Part shown: positions 40,479 to 61,226 of the stretch, in pieces
Position numbering within the stretch: position 1 is the stretch's first letter
Layout: every line of letters starts with the position of its first letter
From: Ralstonia pickettii DTP0602
GTDB lineage: Bacteria > Pseudomonadota > Gammaproteobacteria > Burkholderiales > Burkholderiaceae
DNA: 64,000 bases
Assembly: GCA_000471925.1 (NCBI GenBank)
Contig: CP006669.1
Location: forward strand, 372,001 to 436,000
Direction of reading: 5' to 3'
Program-made: the position numbers and the translations under genes
The notes under the pieces: generated by a model
Told to the model about the DNA's origin: nothing
The model's input: only the letters and a program-made list of their open reading frames with translations
Database searches by the model: none

Positions 40479-41108
40479 GGCGATACAACTGAACGGGGGA
40501 GGGCTGCAGCGCCACGTCAAGCGGCGATTCCTGCTGCGGGCCTCGACGCTTAACGAACTGCACACGAATTCCGTCCGATGCGGGCTCCAGCGTGAGGCGC
40601 AGCGGCGCCGGCGAGGCATCGCGTGCACAGGCCGTCGGACGAACAACGAAGAAAAGGACATCCGAGGCTTGGGCAGCAAGATGCAGACGCCGAAGCGCAT
40701 CGTTACGCAGGTGCGACTGCCAAAAGACGAGCGCTCCGCAGGTCCCCGGTGCGCAAGATCTGCTCCGCGGCCCACAAAGCATCAGCGGTGTTCCGGGTTT
40801 CGACCCAGAGAATCTGGGCGGGCGCGACACTCCAGTTGGCGAGTGCCAACGCTTGAGGCGCGTGCGGCGGCGCCAGAAACGCGACAGGGCGGTTCGCGCG
40901 CGCAACGAGAGCAGGGCGTAACAAGGGCAATTCGCCGATCCGGTTGACGCTGCAGCAACTCCGTCAGGCAACTGAGCGGCCAGCCGCCGCCCGGCAGCTC
41001 CTTGTCGAGCGACGGATACCCGGTCGGAACGGTGCGTGCGCTACCTCGGGCAAGCTGTGAGGCAAGCCATAGCGATGGATGAATGGATTCAGCGGCGACG
41101 GTTAGCAT
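40405..41108 (-). pseudogene. imuA: imuA (SOS mutagenesis RecA/SulA-like), frameshifted
   Basis: ImuA sequence is readable in three frames: LWLASQLARGSARTVPTGYP-SLDKELPGGGWP first, then LPLLRPALVARANRPVAFLA and ILWVETRNTADALWAAEQIL, then FWQSHLRNDALRRLHLAAQA and VDLPTPV. At least two frameshifts separate them, near 40960 and 40770. The start at 41108 still has AAGGAGCTCACC, and a perfect LexA box lies 23 bp upstream. ImuA works with ImuB and DnaE2 in error-prone repair; here the gene is dead but its promoter is kept. Confidence 0.85.
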
Positions 41109-41395: not shown

Positions 41396-41834
41396 AGTCG
41401 CCGCTGTAAAATGAGGCGAATAGTTAATATCTAGGATGCGGATGGTATGATATGAATGGGCGGTTTGTAGGGCGTGACTCTGTCCACCGCACCTAGGCCA
41501 TCGCATCGCTCTAGAGCGATGCCAATTTATTGGCACGGCCAGCCCTGCTGCGGGAAGCGCATCAGGCCTCTTATAATTGGGGTGTTGCAGGCAAGCGCAG
41601 AGCTTGTAGAGGTCGTCGAAAGACGGCAGCCCGTCTTGGGTGGGATCCTCGAATCCGGGGCCTGCAACCGTCTTATTCTTAATTGTCGCGAACCGCGGCA
41701 ATCACACGTTGGCGCTCAGCATCTTCTGTGTCGCCGCACCAGAACTTCAAACCATACCCGTCCACCTGCCCGTTGCGCCGGCACAGATTGCGCGCGAGCA
41801 TGCGCAGGTAACGGTCCTCCGTCTGTGCAGTGAG
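41396..41834 (-). other. Possible gene fragment, unrecognised
   Basis: A minus-strand frame from ATG 41701 begins MPRFATIKNKTVAGPGFEDP then TQDGLPSFDDLYKLCACLQH, which looks like real protein, and continues to about 41470. No family is recognised and no ribosome binding site is clear. A perfect 20-bp palindrome, GCATCGCTCTAGAGCGATGC, lies inside it at 41503-41522. Confidence 0.35.
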
Positions 41835-42104
41835 CTACTTGTCGCCGTAGTGGTAGCGGCAGGCGGCGATGTAAACCGCGTCGTCGTCAGCCGTGTACAC
41901 GAAGCGGTTGGCGTCATCGATGCGGCGTGACCAGACACCAGACAGGTTGCCCTTCAAGGGCTCCGGCTTTCCGATGCCCTCAAAGGGGTCGCGCTGGCAC
42001 TCGACGATGAGTTGGTTGATGCGCTTGAGGATCTTCTTGTCCTGGGTCTGCCACCAGACATATTCCTCCCAGGCGTGCGGGGCAAAGATGACCTTGCGCG
42101 TCAT
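41835..42104 (-). CDS. yoeB: YoeB-family toxin (ribosome-dependent mRNase)
   Basis: 89 residues. FAPHAWEEYVWWQTQDKKIL, then KRINQLIVECQRDPFEGIGK and PEPLKGNLSGVWSRRIDDAN, ending AACRYHYGDK, are the Txe/YoeB pattern with the catalytic Glu, Arg and C-terminal His-Tyr. YoeB cleaves mRNA in the ribosomal A site. It overlaps the antitoxin gene by four bases (ATGA), the usual coupled order. Appears intact. Confidence 0.94.
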   Translation of the reverse strand: MTRKVIFAPHAWEEYVWWQTQDKKILKRINQLIVECQRDPFEGIGKPEPLKGNLSGVWSRRIDDANRFVYTADDDAVYIAACRYHYGDK

Positions 42105-42364
42105 TCAGCGTCCGGGTCGATCAATTGGCGCTCCACGCCCTTACCCTGACGCAGCTGCGCGAGCGATTCCATCAGGCGCTGGGCGTTGGCCGGATTCGAC
42201 ATCAGGTACATTGTTTCCATCCAGCTGTCGTACTGCTCTTGCGACATGATGACGGCGTTGGGCGCGTCGCGGCGCGTGATCAGCACGGCATCGTGGTCGT
42301 CGATGGCTTGGTCGATGACCGCCTTCAGGTTGTTGCGGGCATCGGAGAAATGAACGGTGCGCAT
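42101..42364 (-). CDS. yefM: YefM/Phd-family antitoxin
   Basis: 87 residues. MRTVHFSDARNNLKAVIDQA is the Phd/YefM DNA-binding head, AVLITRRDAPNAVIMSQEQYDSW continues the fold (in parts), and the flexible acidic tail (GVERQLIDPDAE) binds YoeB. The start MRTVHFS follows GAGAGGCGC. A dyad ACTTGT...ACAAGT at 42382-42405 upstream could be its operator. First gene of the toxin-antitoxin operon. Confidence 0.93.
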   Translation of the reverse strand: MRTVHFSDARNNLKAVIDQAIDDHDAVLITRRDAPNAVIMSQEQYDSWMETMYLMSNPANAQRLMESLAQLRQGKGVERQLIDPDAE

Positions 42365-42513
42365 GCGCCTCTCCCAAAAGAACTTGTTCAACTACTGAGA
42401 CAAGTATAGCAAACCTGCGCGCAGAAGGACGGGTGGATCTGCGCGCAGCCTGGGAGCGCGCCGGGAGGTGGTCAGACGGCCCAGAGCTGCTTAACGGCCC
42501 GAAGGCGCAAAAT

Positions 42514-42541
42514 ATTTAACATAACGATTATTATGCGTCTT
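42514..42541. other. dif-like Xer recombination site (28 bp)
   Basis: Arms of 11 bp around a 6-bp centre: ATTTAACATAA, CGATTA, TTATGCGTCTT. The first arm is exactly the XerD half of E. coli dif in reverse complement; the second starts TTATGCG like the XerC half and then departs at four positions. It lies between two toxin-antitoxin loci. Either a plasmid-type pdif site or the dif of a secondary replicon; identity by reading only. Confidence 0.6.
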
Positions 42542-42569
42542 TTGTTTGTTATGAATGAATGAACACACG

Positions 42570-42600
42570 CAAAAATTCGCTCTACGGGCGTTATGTTCAA
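42570..42600 (-). repeat. Roughly 30-bp dispersed repeat, copy 2
   Basis: On the minus strand it reads TTGAACATAACGCCCGTAGA then GCGAATTTTTG, the inverted partner of 13811-13840. It is 29 bp from the dif-like site and itself resembles a Xer site (x-x-x-AACATAA, 6-bp centre CGCCCG, then TAG-x-GCGAA-x-T). Confidence 0.7.
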
Positions 42601-42653: not shown

Positions 42654-42965
42654 TTATGAATGAGCCGGCTCGCCATGCGCAGGACGGACCGCCAAGCGCA
42701 TTCCCATCGCTTTGAGGATCGCCGAGAGATTGCTCAGTACGGGATTCCCGGTCGGAGACAGCGTGCGATAGAGTTGGGTCGGATTCAAGTGAGCTTGCTG
42801 AGCTACGGCCTGGACACCGCCGAACGCCTTGGTCAGCTGACGAAGCGTAATCATCAGTTCGGCTTGATCACCATCCTCGAGAATGGCGTTGAGTGTCTCT
42901 AAGGCGAAGGCCGGATCCTCGCGGAACATTTCGGCCATCGCGTCATCGTGGTGTCGGTCTTTCAT
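42654..42965 (-). CDS. HTH antitoxin of a HigBA/RelE-type module
   Basis: 103 residues. MKDRHHDDAMAEMFREDPAF opens the protein, and QLTKAFGGVQAVAQQAHLNP then TQLYRTLSPTGNPVLSNLSA is the helix-turn-helix of 'addiction module antitoxin' proteins. It overlaps the stop of the preceding toxin gene by one base (TAATG). The toxin is broken by frameshifts, so this antitoxin may now act only as a repressor or against related toxins. Confidence 0.88.
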   Translation of the reverse strand: MKDRHHDDAMAEMFREDPAFALETLNAILEDGDQAELMITLRQLTKAFGGVQAVAQQAHLNPTQLYRTLSPTGNPVLSNLSAILKAMGMRLAVRPAHGEPAHS

Positions 42966-43282
42966 TAGTTGGCCCTCCGTTGCCAGTCTTGCCAATACGC
43001 GCAAGCACGGTCAATGTCAGCGCTCTGCGTGCGCTTATCACCACCGCACAACAGCAGAACGATCTGCCCCTTTGCGATGCCGTAGTACACGCGATAGCCG
43101 GCACCCACGTCGACACGCAACTCCCAAACTCCATCTCTGCAAAACTTGTGATCGCCAAAGTTGCCCTGCTCGGCTCAAGCGGCGAACGACGGAGACCTTG
43201 GCGGTGCTGTCTTTCAAGCCACTAACCATTCGTAGAAGATGTCACGCTGATCCGGAGTCAGGTAGTGTCGAATCTCATACAT
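42965..43282 (-). pseudogene. RelE/Gp49-like toxin with two frameshifts
   Basis: MYEIRHYLTPDQRDIFYEWL runs into a stop; GLKDSTAKVSVVRRLSRA continues in the next frame; GNFGDHKFCRDGVWELRVDV, then AGYRVYYGIAKGQIVLLLCG and DKRTQSADIDRACAYW in a third frame. Two small indels, near 43221 and 43165, explain it. Otherwise a full-length phage-derived Gp49-like/HigB toxin of about 105 residues. Confidence 0.85.
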
Positions 43283-43789
43283 AATCTATTTTCGTCTATA
43301 AACGAAAAAAGGTCAAGGCCGCTCGTTGCCTGCCCCACTATCGGCGCCAAGCAGCCGGTACCGCTCCAAGAAGGATACGCCCGTGGCAAGGTGCTTTTAC
43401 TTCACAATGTGCGGCCACTGACTGCCTCTTTTGCTGTAACAGGCCTCGAACCGGGATACCCATCCCTCTCCACAGCGGCCGAGGGCTTACAGCAACTCCG
43501 GCAGTTGGTGCGGCTGTGCCGCCGACCTTGCCCAGTTTCGGCAACGCCCGCCGCAGGCTGGCTCGGCGCACCCTGAAGGCGGCCCCGTTCCGTCGAGAAT
43601 TGGGTACTCCGTGCCACGAACTGCCAGCCGGCCTCACCAAACTCCCCCTCCCCGGGGGCGGCGCGTCGCCGCTTGATAAGCTCAACGTTATCGAACCTTA
43701 TTGCCGCGCCCTGGCAACGCCGGCGTCACGTGGATCCTGTCTACGCGCATGCGAGTTTGGAGGGAGCGCAGCGGCAGCAGCCGGCCAGG
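43283..43789. other. Gene-free stretch with hairpin repeat copy D
   Basis: No gene recognised. Hairpin repeat copy D lies at 43675-43730, 60 bp from the left end of the first IS91 element. Confidence 0.5.
43675..43730 (-). repeat. Dispersed hairpin repeat, copy D (inverted)
   Basis: On the minus strand: CGTGACGCCGGCGTTGCCAG, GGCGCGGC, then the 28-bp core AATAAGGTTC, GATAACGTTG, AGCTTATC. The outer part is nearly identical to copy A at 12350-12405, in opposite orientation, 31 kb away. Confidence 0.75.
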
Positions 43790-43908
43790 GGACTAAACCG
43801 CTCGCGCGGTAACCCTCCGGCCATCGCGCAAAGTGACTGAACCGCCTGTGCTGTTCCCTATGTTGAGGACCGAGGCAATTGGCCTCGATTCTCGACAGGA
43901 GCACAGCC

Positions 43909-44784
43909 ATGTCAGTCGCGACGCCTACCATCAGCCCGCTGCGCCAGCGCATGATTGAGGACATGCGGATGCGCAAGCTCGCGGACAAGACTCAGACCCA
44001 CTACATCCGCGCCGTGTGCCAGTTCGCAGCCTTTCTCGGCCGCTCGCCGGACACGGCCAGCACCGAGGATCTGCGACGCTATCAACTCCATCTGGTCGAT
44101 CACGGCATCTCACCGACCTCGCTCAACGCCGCGATCAGCGGACTGAAGTTCTTCTTCGAGGTGACTCTCTGCGACGTCGACCGGATGGCCAGGATGCGCC
44201 CGGTGAGCGTGCCGCGCGTCCTGCCTGTCGTGCTCAGCCCCGACGAAGTCGGCAGGTTACTGGCTGCCGCCAGCAACCTGAAGCACCAGACCGCGCTCGC
44301 GGTCGCCTATGGCGCAGGCCTGCGCGCCAGCGAAGTGGTAGCGCTGAGGGTCAGTGACATCGACAGCGAGCGCATGACCCTGCGGATCGAACAAGGCAAG
44401 GGTCGCAGGGACCGTTACGCCATGCTCTCGCCAGTCCTGCTCGAACGCCTGCGCGTCTGGTGGCGCGTGGCTCATGCTCAGGGCAAGATGCTCGATGGTG
44501 GCTGGCTGTTTCCGGGCCTCAATCCCATCGAGTCACTCAGCACCCGGCAACTCAACCGTGCCTGCCACGCAGCCGCGCAGGCCGCAGAGATCGACAAGCG
44601 CGTATCCATGCATACGCTACGCCATAGCTTTGCGACGCACCTGCTGGAGCAGAAGGTCGATATCCGCGTGATTCAGGTGCTGCTTGGACATAAGAAGCTC
44701 GAGACGACAGCGCTCTACACCCAGGTCGCCACCGATCTGCTGCGCGAGGTGATCAGCCCGCTCGAACACCTGCGTTCCGACTAG
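43909..44784 (+). CDS. Tyrosine recombinase of the IS91 element, copy 1
   Basis: 291 residues. A SAM-like N-terminal core-binding domain (ISPLRQRMIEDMRMRKLADK) is followed by the catalytic domain with Arg in YGAGLRASEVVALRVSD, Lys in EQGKGRRDR, H-x-x-R in MHTLRHSFATHLLE, LLGHKKLETTALYTQV with His and the Tyr nucleophile. Start at ATG 43909 after AGGAGCACAGCC. It lies 22 bp before the transposase and is probably co-transcribed. Its role in IS91 transposition is not settled; it may resolve or integrate circular forms. Confidence 0.93.
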   Translation: MSVATPTISPLRQRMIEDMRMRKLADKTQTHYIRAVCQFAAFLGRSPDTASTEDLRRYQLHLVDHGISPTSLNAAISGLKFFFEVTLCDVDRMARMRPVSVPRVLPVVLSPDEVGRLLAAASNLKHQTALAVAYGAGLRASEVVALRVSDIDSERMTLRIEQGKGRRDRYAMLSPVLLERLRVWWRVAHAQGKMLDGGWLFPGLNPIESLSTRQLNRACHAAAQAAEIDKRVSMHTLRHSFATHLLEQKVDIRVIQVLLGHKKLETTALYTQVATDLLREVISPLEHLRSD

Positions 44785-44806
44785 GGATCCTGCCACCGAG
44801 CTCATT

Positions 44807-45976
44807 GTGCTCGAGGTCGCGGATATCTTCCGCCTCCACGGGCCGGCCTGGCGACAGACTGCACACCTGAGCCTGAGTCAGTTGCAAGTCATGTCGGCCA
44901 TTGAACGGTGTCGCACCGCGGCACTGGGTGGGCATGTGCTGCGCTGCTCCGGCTGCGCCAAGCTTGAGGTTGCCTACAATTCCTGCCGCAACCGCCATTG
45001 CCCCAAGTGTCAGGCCAATGCTGCCCGGCGCTGGCTCGACGCACGCAGCGACGACCTCCTCCCCATTGAGTACTACCACGTCGTATTCACGCTTCCCGCA
45101 AACATCGGCGCCATCGCCTGGTACAACAAGGCGGTGATCTACGGACTGTTGTTCGATGTCGCCGCCGACACCCTCCGGACCATCGCCGCCGACCCGAAGC
45201 ACCTCGGAGCGCAGATCGGCGCCACCCTGGTGCTGCACACCTGGGGATCGGCACTCACGCATCATCCACATGTACACGGCATCGTCCCCGGCGGCGGCCT
45301 CTCACCGGATGGCGAACGCTGGGTGGCCTGCCGCCCGGGCTTCTTCCTGCCAGTCCGCGTGCTCTCCCGCCTGTTCCGGCGGCGCTTCCTTGAGGCACTC
45401 CAGACAGCACACGCGATGGGGCAACTGCAGTTCTTTGGCGAGTTCAGTTCGCTCACCGACCCGGACGCGTTCGCGCAGTGGTTGGCGCCACTACGCGTCA
45501 CCGAATGGGTCGTCTACGCCAAGCGACCATTCGCTGGACCGGAAGCGGTACTGGCCTACCTGTCACGCTACACCCACCGTGTGGCGATCTCCAACACACG
45601 CCTGGTCTCGCTCGATGAACGTGGCGTGACCTTCCGCTGGAAGGACTACCGCGCCAAGGGACGCACGCGCTATAAGACCATGACGCTGGATGTCGGAGAG
45701 TTCATGCGGCGCTTCCTGCTGCACGTGCTACCGGGCGGCTTCCATCGCATCCGCCACTACGGTCTGCTTGCCAACCCCGTGCGCCGCGCGAATCTGATCA
45801 AGGCACGCGAGCTATTGAACGCCGTGCCGACGGTGACCGCTCCGCCTGACGACACCGATGTCGCTACACGTCCGTCCTTCCTTTGCCGGCACTGTGGCGC
45901 ACCGATGCTCATCATCGAGGTCATCCCGCGCAGTCCCTGTATCCGCGGACCGCCACCGCAGCGAGCCCTCGCATGA
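44807..45976 (+). CDS. IS91-family HUH transposase, copy 1
   Basis: 389 residues. An N-terminal zinc-binding region (CSGC, C-R-N-R-H-CPKCQ at about 48-69) precedes the HUH motif HPHVH at 153-157, and Tyr251/Tyr255 in YLSRYTHR are the nucleophile candidates. This is the rolling-circle (Y2/Y1 HUH) type. GTG start at 44807. The element moves from an origin end to a terminus end and can carry flanking DNA, which matters for the 13.9-kb block enclosed by the two copies. Confidence 0.95.
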   Translation: MLEVADIFRLHGPAWRQTAHLSLSQLQVMSAIERCRTAALGGHVLRCSGCAKLEVAYNSCRNRHCPKCQANAARRWLDARSDDLLPIEYYHVVFTLPANIGAIAWYNKAVIYGLLFDVAADTLRTIAADPKHLGAQIGATLVLHTWGSALTHHPHVHGIVPGGGLSPDGERWVACRPGFFLPVRVLSRLFRRRFLEALQTAHAMGQLQFFGEFSSLTDPDAFAQWLAPLRVTEWVVYAKRPFAGPEAVLAYLSRYTHRVAISNTRLVSLDERGVTFRWKDYRAKGRTRYKTMTLDVGEFMRRFLLHVLPGGFHRIRHYGLLANPVRRANLIKARELLNAVPTVTAPPDDTDVATRPSFLCRHCGAPMLIIEVIPRSPCIRGPPPQRALA

Positions 45977-60350: not shown

Positions 60351-61226
60351 ATGTCAGTCGCGACGCCTACCATCAGCCCGCTGCGCCAGCGCATGATTGA
60401 GGACATGCGGATGCGCAAGCTCGCGGACAAGACTCAGACCCACTACATCCGCGCCGTGTGCCAGTTCGCAGCCTTTCTCGGCCGCTCGCCGGACACGGCC
60501 AGCACCGAGGATCTGCGACGCTATCAACTCCATCTGGTCGATCACGGCATCTCACCGACCTCGCTCAACGCCGCGATCAGCGGACTGAAGTTCTTCTTCG
60601 AGGTGACTCTCTGCGACGTCGACCGGATGGCCAGGATGCGCCCGGTGAGCGTGCCGCGCGTCCTGCCTGTCGTGCTCAGCCCCGACGAAGTCGGCAGGTT
60701 ACTGGCTGCCGCCAGCAACCTGAAGCACCAGACCGCGCTCGCGGTCGCCTATGGCGCAGGCCTGCGCGCCAGCGAAGTGGTAGCGCTGAGGGTCAGTGAC
60801 ATCGACAGCGAGCGCATGACCCTGCGGATCGAACAAGGCAAGGGTCGCAGGGACCGTTACGCCATGCTCTCGCCAGTCCTGCTCGAACGCCTGCGCGTCT
60901 GGTGGCGCGTGGCTCATGCTCAGGGCAAGATGCTCGATGGTGGCTGGCTGTTTCCGGGCCTCAATCCCATCGAGTCACTCAGCACCCGGCAACTCAACCG
61001 TGCCTGCCACGCAGCCGCGCAGGCCGCAGAGATCGACAAGCGCGTATCCATGCATACGCTACGCCATAGCTTTGCGACGCACCTGCTGGAGCAGAAGGTC
61101 GATATCCGCGTGATTCAGGTGCTGCTTGGACATAAGAAGCTCGAGACGACAGCGCTCTACACCCAGGTCGCCACCGATCTGCTGCGCGAGGTGATCAGCC
61201 CGCTCGAACACCTGCGTTCCGACTAG
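60351..61226 (+). CDS. Tyrosine recombinase of the IS91 element, copy 2
   Basis: Same 291-residue sequence as the gene at 43909-44784, including all catalytic residues. Identity over the whole element points to recent duplication. Confidence 0.92.
   Translation: MSVATPTISPLRQRMIEDMRMRKLADKTQTHYIRAVCQFAAFLGRSPDTASTEDLRRYQLHLVDHGISPTSLNAAISGLKFFFEVTLCDVDRMARMRPVSVPRVLPVVLSPDEVGRLLAAASNLKHQTALAVAYGAGLRASEVVALRVSDIDSERMTLRIEQGKGRRDRYAMLSPVLLERLRVWWRVAHAQGKMLDGGWLFPGLNPIESLSTRQLNRACHAAAQAAEIDKRVSMHTLRHSFATHLLEQKVDIRVIQVLLGHKKLETTALYTQVATDLLREVISPLEHLRSD

Follow-up and report, generated by a model that had tools for sequence, protein, structure and literature searches.

A predicted chromosome-type dif site on the 737-kb third replicon of a Cupriavidus-type genome, and IS1202-family transposon ends at dif sites of the genus

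Sequence and neighbourhood of the site

The stretch of DNA analysed (64,000 nucleotides; referred to as the window) corresponds to bases 372,001-436,000 of contig C3. The genome is of the Cupriavidus type and comprises three contigs: C1 (4,499,145 bp), C2 (2,889,590 bp) and C3 (737,115 bp). The features at the centre of this analysis are listed by window position.

41835..42104, minus strand: yoeB-type toxin gene (PF06769, 134.8 bits)
42101..42391, minus strand: yefM-type antitoxin gene (PF02604, 91.8 bits for 42101-42376)
42514..42524, plus strand: predicted XerD-binding arm of dif, present as the reverse complement ATTTAACATAA; identical to the C1 dif arm at 11/11 positions
42525..42530, plus strand: 6-bp centre CGATTA, unlike the centres of C1 (TATACA) and C2 (GATAGA)
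42531..42541, plus strand: predicted XerC-binding arm TTATGCGTCTT; equal to the dif arms of C1 and C2 at 11/11 positions
42542..42550, plus strand: TTGTTTGTT, the 9 bases that follow the XerC arm, common to the C1 dif flank
42654..43004, minus strand: HigA-type antitoxin gene (PF21716, 44 bits)
42968..43282, minus strand: Gp49/HigB-type toxin gene remnant, interrupted by stops in translation

The 28-bp site spans 42514-42541 and has the sequence ATTTAACATAA CGATTA TTATGCGTCTT, in an 11-6-11 layout. With up to 3 mismatches allowed over the 18 defined bases, it was the single match in the window to ATTTAACATAA-N6-TTATGCG, a pattern matched in 0 of 100 dinucleotide shuffles of the window. The site is real, and a chance match is excluded. 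Both arms agree with those of the C1 dif at 22/22 positions. The earlier note had read an exact XerD half at 42514, and ATTTAACATAA is indeed found there, with all 11 positions equal to the C1 dif arm. Its count of 7 of 11 for the XerC half holds against the E. coli arm and fails against the dif of the genome's own main chromosome, where the agreement is 11/11. It had also placed the site between yefM-yoeB and a HigA-type antitoxin gene, and profile matches were obtained on both sides.

The stop-free C-terminal piece of the toxin gene remnant at 42968..43282, the partner of the HigA-type antitoxin gene, matched PF05973 (29.1 bits; cut-off 23.9). A DUF3800-VII RNA (RF02967) lies just past yoeB at window 41586-41671, scoring 72 bits (gathering score 36.2). 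A tyrosine recombinase gene is located at 43879-44784, 1.3 kb from dif, and scored below the XerC, XerD and integron-integrase cut-offs. Since the adjoining gene encodes an IS91 transposase (427 bits; the pair spans window 43879-45976), this recombinase probably belongs to an IS91-type element. A second, similar recombinase was noted 16 kb away at window ~60390-61214 (C3 432390-433214).

Imperfect palindromes of ~50 bp, AACATAAC...GTTATGTT, whose arms are similar to the XerD arm, form a further repeat family. Copies were located at C3 452278-452327, at C2 1081737-1081786 and at loci L068, L069 and L070-L080, and a half copy (42565-42600) lies 23 bp outside the window's dif. Exact matches to the family were present in 9/60 genus genomes, compared with 1/60 for the reversed control.

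dif sites and terminus position on the three replicons

The whole genome was searched for dif at up to 3 mismatches. C1 contained one perfect site (centre TATACA), C3 one perfect site (centre CGATTA, the window's site) and C2 one site with 1 mismatch (centre GATAGA). C3 also contained two weaker matches with 2 mismatches each; for the reversed control pattern there was 1 match in total. At a threshold of 1 mismatch in 18, each contig therefore carries exactly one site. These sites lie at 50%, 52% and 56% of the length of C1, C2 and C3, respectively, and their 6-bp centres differ among all three replicons.

The cumulative GC skew of C3 reaches its maximum at 414,972, 445 bp from the site centre at 414,527, and its minimum at the contig ends. 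Mean skew is +0.020 on the left arm and -0.017 on the right arm. A 2-kb block bootstrap placed the maximum within -12 to +20 kb of the site (5-95% range). C3 opens with parA-parB genes (101-2280), of which the first is of the ParA/RepA type, so the origin probably lies at the contig ends, with the site at 56%. As a point against a terminus at the site, the C3 skew is weak at 440-500 kb.

Copies of the KOPS motif GGGNAGGG on C3 are oriented towards the site in 85 cases and away from it in 29 (binomial p 1.5e-7). The nearest copies on each side both point to dif:

40496..40503 (C3 412,496), plus strand: nearest KOPS to the left, GGGNAGGG
43646..43653 (C3 415,646), minus strand: nearest KOPS to the right

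The cumulative KOPS maximum, however, falls 73 kb to the right of the site, which also counts against a terminus there; this displacement is due to several wrong-way KOPS at 440-488 kb. Equivalent counts were made across the other two dif sites in 20 sampled 20-kb stretches per replicon. KOPS counts were 27/2 to the left and 2/22 to the right of the C1 dif, and 20/4 to the left and 6/25 to the right of the C2 dif. Skew had the expected sign in 17/20 stretches of C1 and 18/20 of C2, although over the first 10 kb on the right side of the C1 dif it was still positive. The recombination machinery is encoded on C1, with XerD (372.6 bits) and XerC (337.3 bits) each above cut-off and two FtsK-gamma matches above cut-off, both on this contig.

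The sequence at 42514-42541 is on this evidence interpreted as the single chromosome-type dif of the 737-kb replicon C3, with a probability of roughly 0.95. The earlier note had offered the terminus of the replicon as one of two readings, and had pointed to GC skew and to a genome-wide comparison of dif sites as ways to decide; both came out in its favour, with one full-strength site per replicon (that of C3 being the window's), a skew maximum 445 bp from the site centre and a matching KOPS orientation.

Its other reading took the site for a pdif and the toxin-antitoxin genes for a Xer-mobilised module of the kind found in Acinetobacter plasmids, where two inverse Xer sites flank a cargo and XerCD moves the module. 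The dif-like site does separate two toxin-antitoxin loci. The module reading fails, though, because no second Xer site brackets these genes: the window contained none within 3 mismatches, and a scan of C3 with the local arms and spacers of 5-8 bp gave five other sites of at least 16/22 (18, 17, 16, 16 and 16), the closest of them ~63 kb off. Nearer candidates, such as those at C3 407,341 (7 kb away) and 385,810, scored no more than 15 with the E. coli arms. Maximum scores in 10 Markov-simulated replicons, also with the E. coli arms, were 15-17. The best other site on C3, at 47,482 (367 kb from dif), scores 18/22 against the local arms; against the E. coli arms its score is 17, equal to the highest of the 10 simulations, in which the E. 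coli arms were used. The matches at 351,843 and 520,194 score 16 and 17 of 22 with the local arms, and all three were treated as chance level. The second toxin gene is, in addition, broken by stops, and the site sits at the skew maximum of C3. A Xer-mobilised addiction module is thus highly improbable here, and the search for further 11-6-11 sites that the earlier note had suggested yielded none flanking the toxin-antitoxin genes.

C3 is plasmid-like, with parA-parB at its start, and its site might accordingly be of the cer/psi type, at which XerCD is under the control of accessory proteins (PepA, ArgR) and not of FtsK. This is very unlikely given the 6-bp centre, the size of 737 kb and the symmetry of skew and KOPS. 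Results on large replicons in Enterobacteriaceae also speak against it (main text of PMC11724359). There, every enterobacterial replicon >242 kb is described as having a Xer site, and cloned sites from larger replicons, predicted to lack accessory sequences, underwent FtsK-dependent recombination. A reading as an integron attC-like site whose loop contains dif would draw on GCTTAAC (42489) and GGGCGTTATG (42586), which with their neighbours are roughly complementary by eye, and on the recurrence of the 36-bp stretch 42565-42600 in other Cupriavidus plasmids. That stretch, however, is half of the 50-bp palindrome family, which has copies far from dif; the fold of the region gave z values of -0.94 and -1.06, within the range of the shuffles; and no integron integrase scored above the TIGR02249 cut-off in this one genome. 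The doubt that the earlier note had itself expressed about attC is upheld, and such a site is scarcely credible.

dif sites and IS1202-family ends in the genus

In the genus, 57 genomes of at least 90% completeness were searched for dif at up to 1 mismatch. At least one site was found in 49/57 genomes and none in 8/57; the reversed control pattern matched in 0/57. Lengths of the site-bearing contigs were available for 13 genomes. In 9 of these 13 (G000, G014, G023, G025, G030, G037, G051, G057 and G059), the site-bearing contigs sum to the whole assembly, with assembly sizes rounded to 0.1 Mb in all of these except G000 (the present genome), and these nine therefore have no large contig devoid of a site. 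They comprise 27 contigs, 25 with exactly one site and 2 (G025:C2 and G037:C2) with a second, inverted one. Against a general rule of one dif per replicon, contigs without a site at this threshold account for 0.3 to 1.4 Mb in G007, G029, G033 and G038.

In two species, the second dif-like site lies in inverse orientation 1.1-1.2 kb from dif, on the second large replicon (L168, G025:C2 1458843 and 1459918; L173, G037:C2 1483190 and 1484435). In both pairs the XerC arms face each other, which is the geometry of a small dif module.

The search of 57 genomes yielded 129 sites with 68 different centres. Within genomes, centres no more than 1 base apart occurred in 4/150 pairs compared with 11.8 expected, and 27 of 5000 shuffles gave a count as low. 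Two of these pairs come from closely similar loci, with 1500 identical bases to the left, up to the locus limit, in G046 and 2577/3024 equal positions in G029. When one site of each was dropped, 2 close-centre pairs remained against 11.3 expected (2 of 5000 shuffles). Identical centres occurred in 3/150 within-genome pairs, where 3.9 were expected, and this depletion was not significant. By one of two measures, then, centres within a genome are more dissimilar than shuffled ones. The shuffle ignores replicon class, so common descent of replicon types could account for part of the depletion. It is already published that the dif centres of a single species differ from chromosome to chromosome (main text of PMC2731167).

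The flanks were compared across 73 distinct sites, drawn from several sets of loci and including some but not all of the 129. A transposon end (TGT followed by repeated AATGTC boxes) was positioned exactly 5 bp outside the XerC arm in 38 of the 73, and at other offsets up to 24 in 9 more. By the same fixed criterion, it was present on the XerD side at 0/73 sites. For 12 loci longer sequence was fetched: in six, the ACA end of the element is followed by an exact 5-bp duplication of the dif-adjacent bases, and in the other six no 5-bp duplication was present. The six duplicated elements are 1,663-1,952 bp long, and their right ends match their left ends at 13-22 of 26 positions. Both of the two transposases scanned were of the ISNCY/IS1202 type (NF033594, 507 and 514 bits). 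An IS21-family identity was rejected, with 28 bits for IS21 against 507 bits for ISNCY. Examples of Cupriavidus dif loci with IS1202-family ends are L315, L316, L317, L322, L324 and L325.

In the present genome the transposon end is at +5 from the C2 dif and at +11 from the C1 dif (flanks L003 and L001 among the loci of G000), and the C1 and C2 sites with their flanks have 433 bp in common at 97.5%. The window's dif has a TGT at +6 that lacks AATGTC boxes and no IS1202-family end at +5, nor was any ACA end at 42.5-50 kb of the window followed by a TTGTT duplication.

Draft contigs L184, L094, L111, L095 and L104 stop ~100-450 bp past dif on the XerC side. The ends of L184, L094 and L111 carry the IS1202-type end, and this repeat may be what breaks the assembly at those three loci; L095 and L104 have another flank in common.

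A scan of named, mostly pseudomonadotal genomes returned at least 120 candidate stretches with dif and the transposon end at the same spacing. The taxa among the matches listed include Acinetobacter, Cupriavidus, Erwinia, Pantoea, Rahnella, Xenorhabdus, Klebsiella, Ralstonia, Pandoraea, several Rhodobacteraceae and others.

Relation to known systems and proposed role

The window's site adds an example to an established kind, namely an ordinary chromosome-type dif, in this case predicted on a megaplasmid. It resembles the chromosomal dif of Proteobacteria as described in the main text of Carnoy and Roten 2009 (PMC2731167) in its 28-bp length, 11-6-11 layout and occurrence once per replicon, in having centres that differ between the replicons of one species, and in the presence of single xerC and xerD genes on the largest replicon. 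That work concerned species with two or three chromosomes, whereas here the site is on a 737-kb third replicon, and Cupriavidus is unmentioned in its main text. The large-plasmid dif of Enterobacteriaceae, controlled by FtsK (main text of PMC11724359), likewise consists of a 28-bp Xer site and occurs on replicons larger than about 250 kb, and in R27 the GC skew and KOPS are biased from the origins to the region holding the site. The host lineage is a different one, and function was established by experiment there and is predicted from sequence here. A study of large extrachromosomal replicons that includes C. necator N-1 (PMC13342612) concerns the same genus, and in the portion of it considered here reports a switch of KOPS polarity at the dif of secondary replicons; N-1, a strain other than the present one, is the sole Cupriavidus in its strain list.

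The elements at the dif sites of Cupriavidus have their counterpart in the IS1202-family (ISAjo2-type) 'dif site hunters' of Acinetobacter, for which interaction with XerC was proposed as one possibility (main text of PMC10132070). Common to both are the position 5 bp from the XerC arm, a single orientation, TGT/ACA ends and 5-bp duplications. The Cupriavidus elements lie next to other dif sites and not at the window's own. Neither Cupriavidus nor Ralstonia is named in the main text of PMC10132070. Among the matches listed, which included few subscription journals, IS1202-family elements at Cupriavidus dif sites went unreported in titles and abstract openings. The present survey extends the known IS1202-family dif hunters to new hosts.

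In the proposed mechanism, which would act before cell division, a dimer would arise whenever sister copies of C3 undergo an odd number of crossovers. FtsK at the division septum, oriented by KOPS, would pump the DNA until the two dif copies are paired, and XerC and XerD, encoded on C1, would recombine the pair and restore monomers. With its replicon-specific 6-bp centre, the site would recombine with its sister copy but inefficiently with the dif sites of the other two replicons, and the replicons would consequently not fuse. XerCD binding, dependence on FtsK, dimer resolution and insulation by the centre are all predictions of this scheme. The flanking toxin-antitoxin genes would be neighbours of the site and not its cargo, and the position of dif between two addiction gene pairs appears incidental.

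A broader proposal, to which we give even odds, is that in multi-replicon Cupriavidus the dif of each replicon is both insulated and hunted. Centres within a genome would be kept different to prevent replicon fusion by XerCD, and the position 5 bp outside the XerC arm would be a preferred landing site for IS1202-family elements, probably guided by dif-bound XerC, across many Pseudomonadota beyond Acinetobacter. The window's site would be an unoccupied member of this set.

A terminus and a predicted chromosome-style dimer-resolution site are now assigned to the 737-kb replicon, and a false lead, that of a Xer-mobile addiction module in Burkholderiales, is removed. For annotators, the frequency of repeated transposon ends in dif regions is a reason for caution. 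In Cupriavidus, IS1202-family elements commonly land at dif, and XerC-guided transposition becomes testable outside Acinetobacter.
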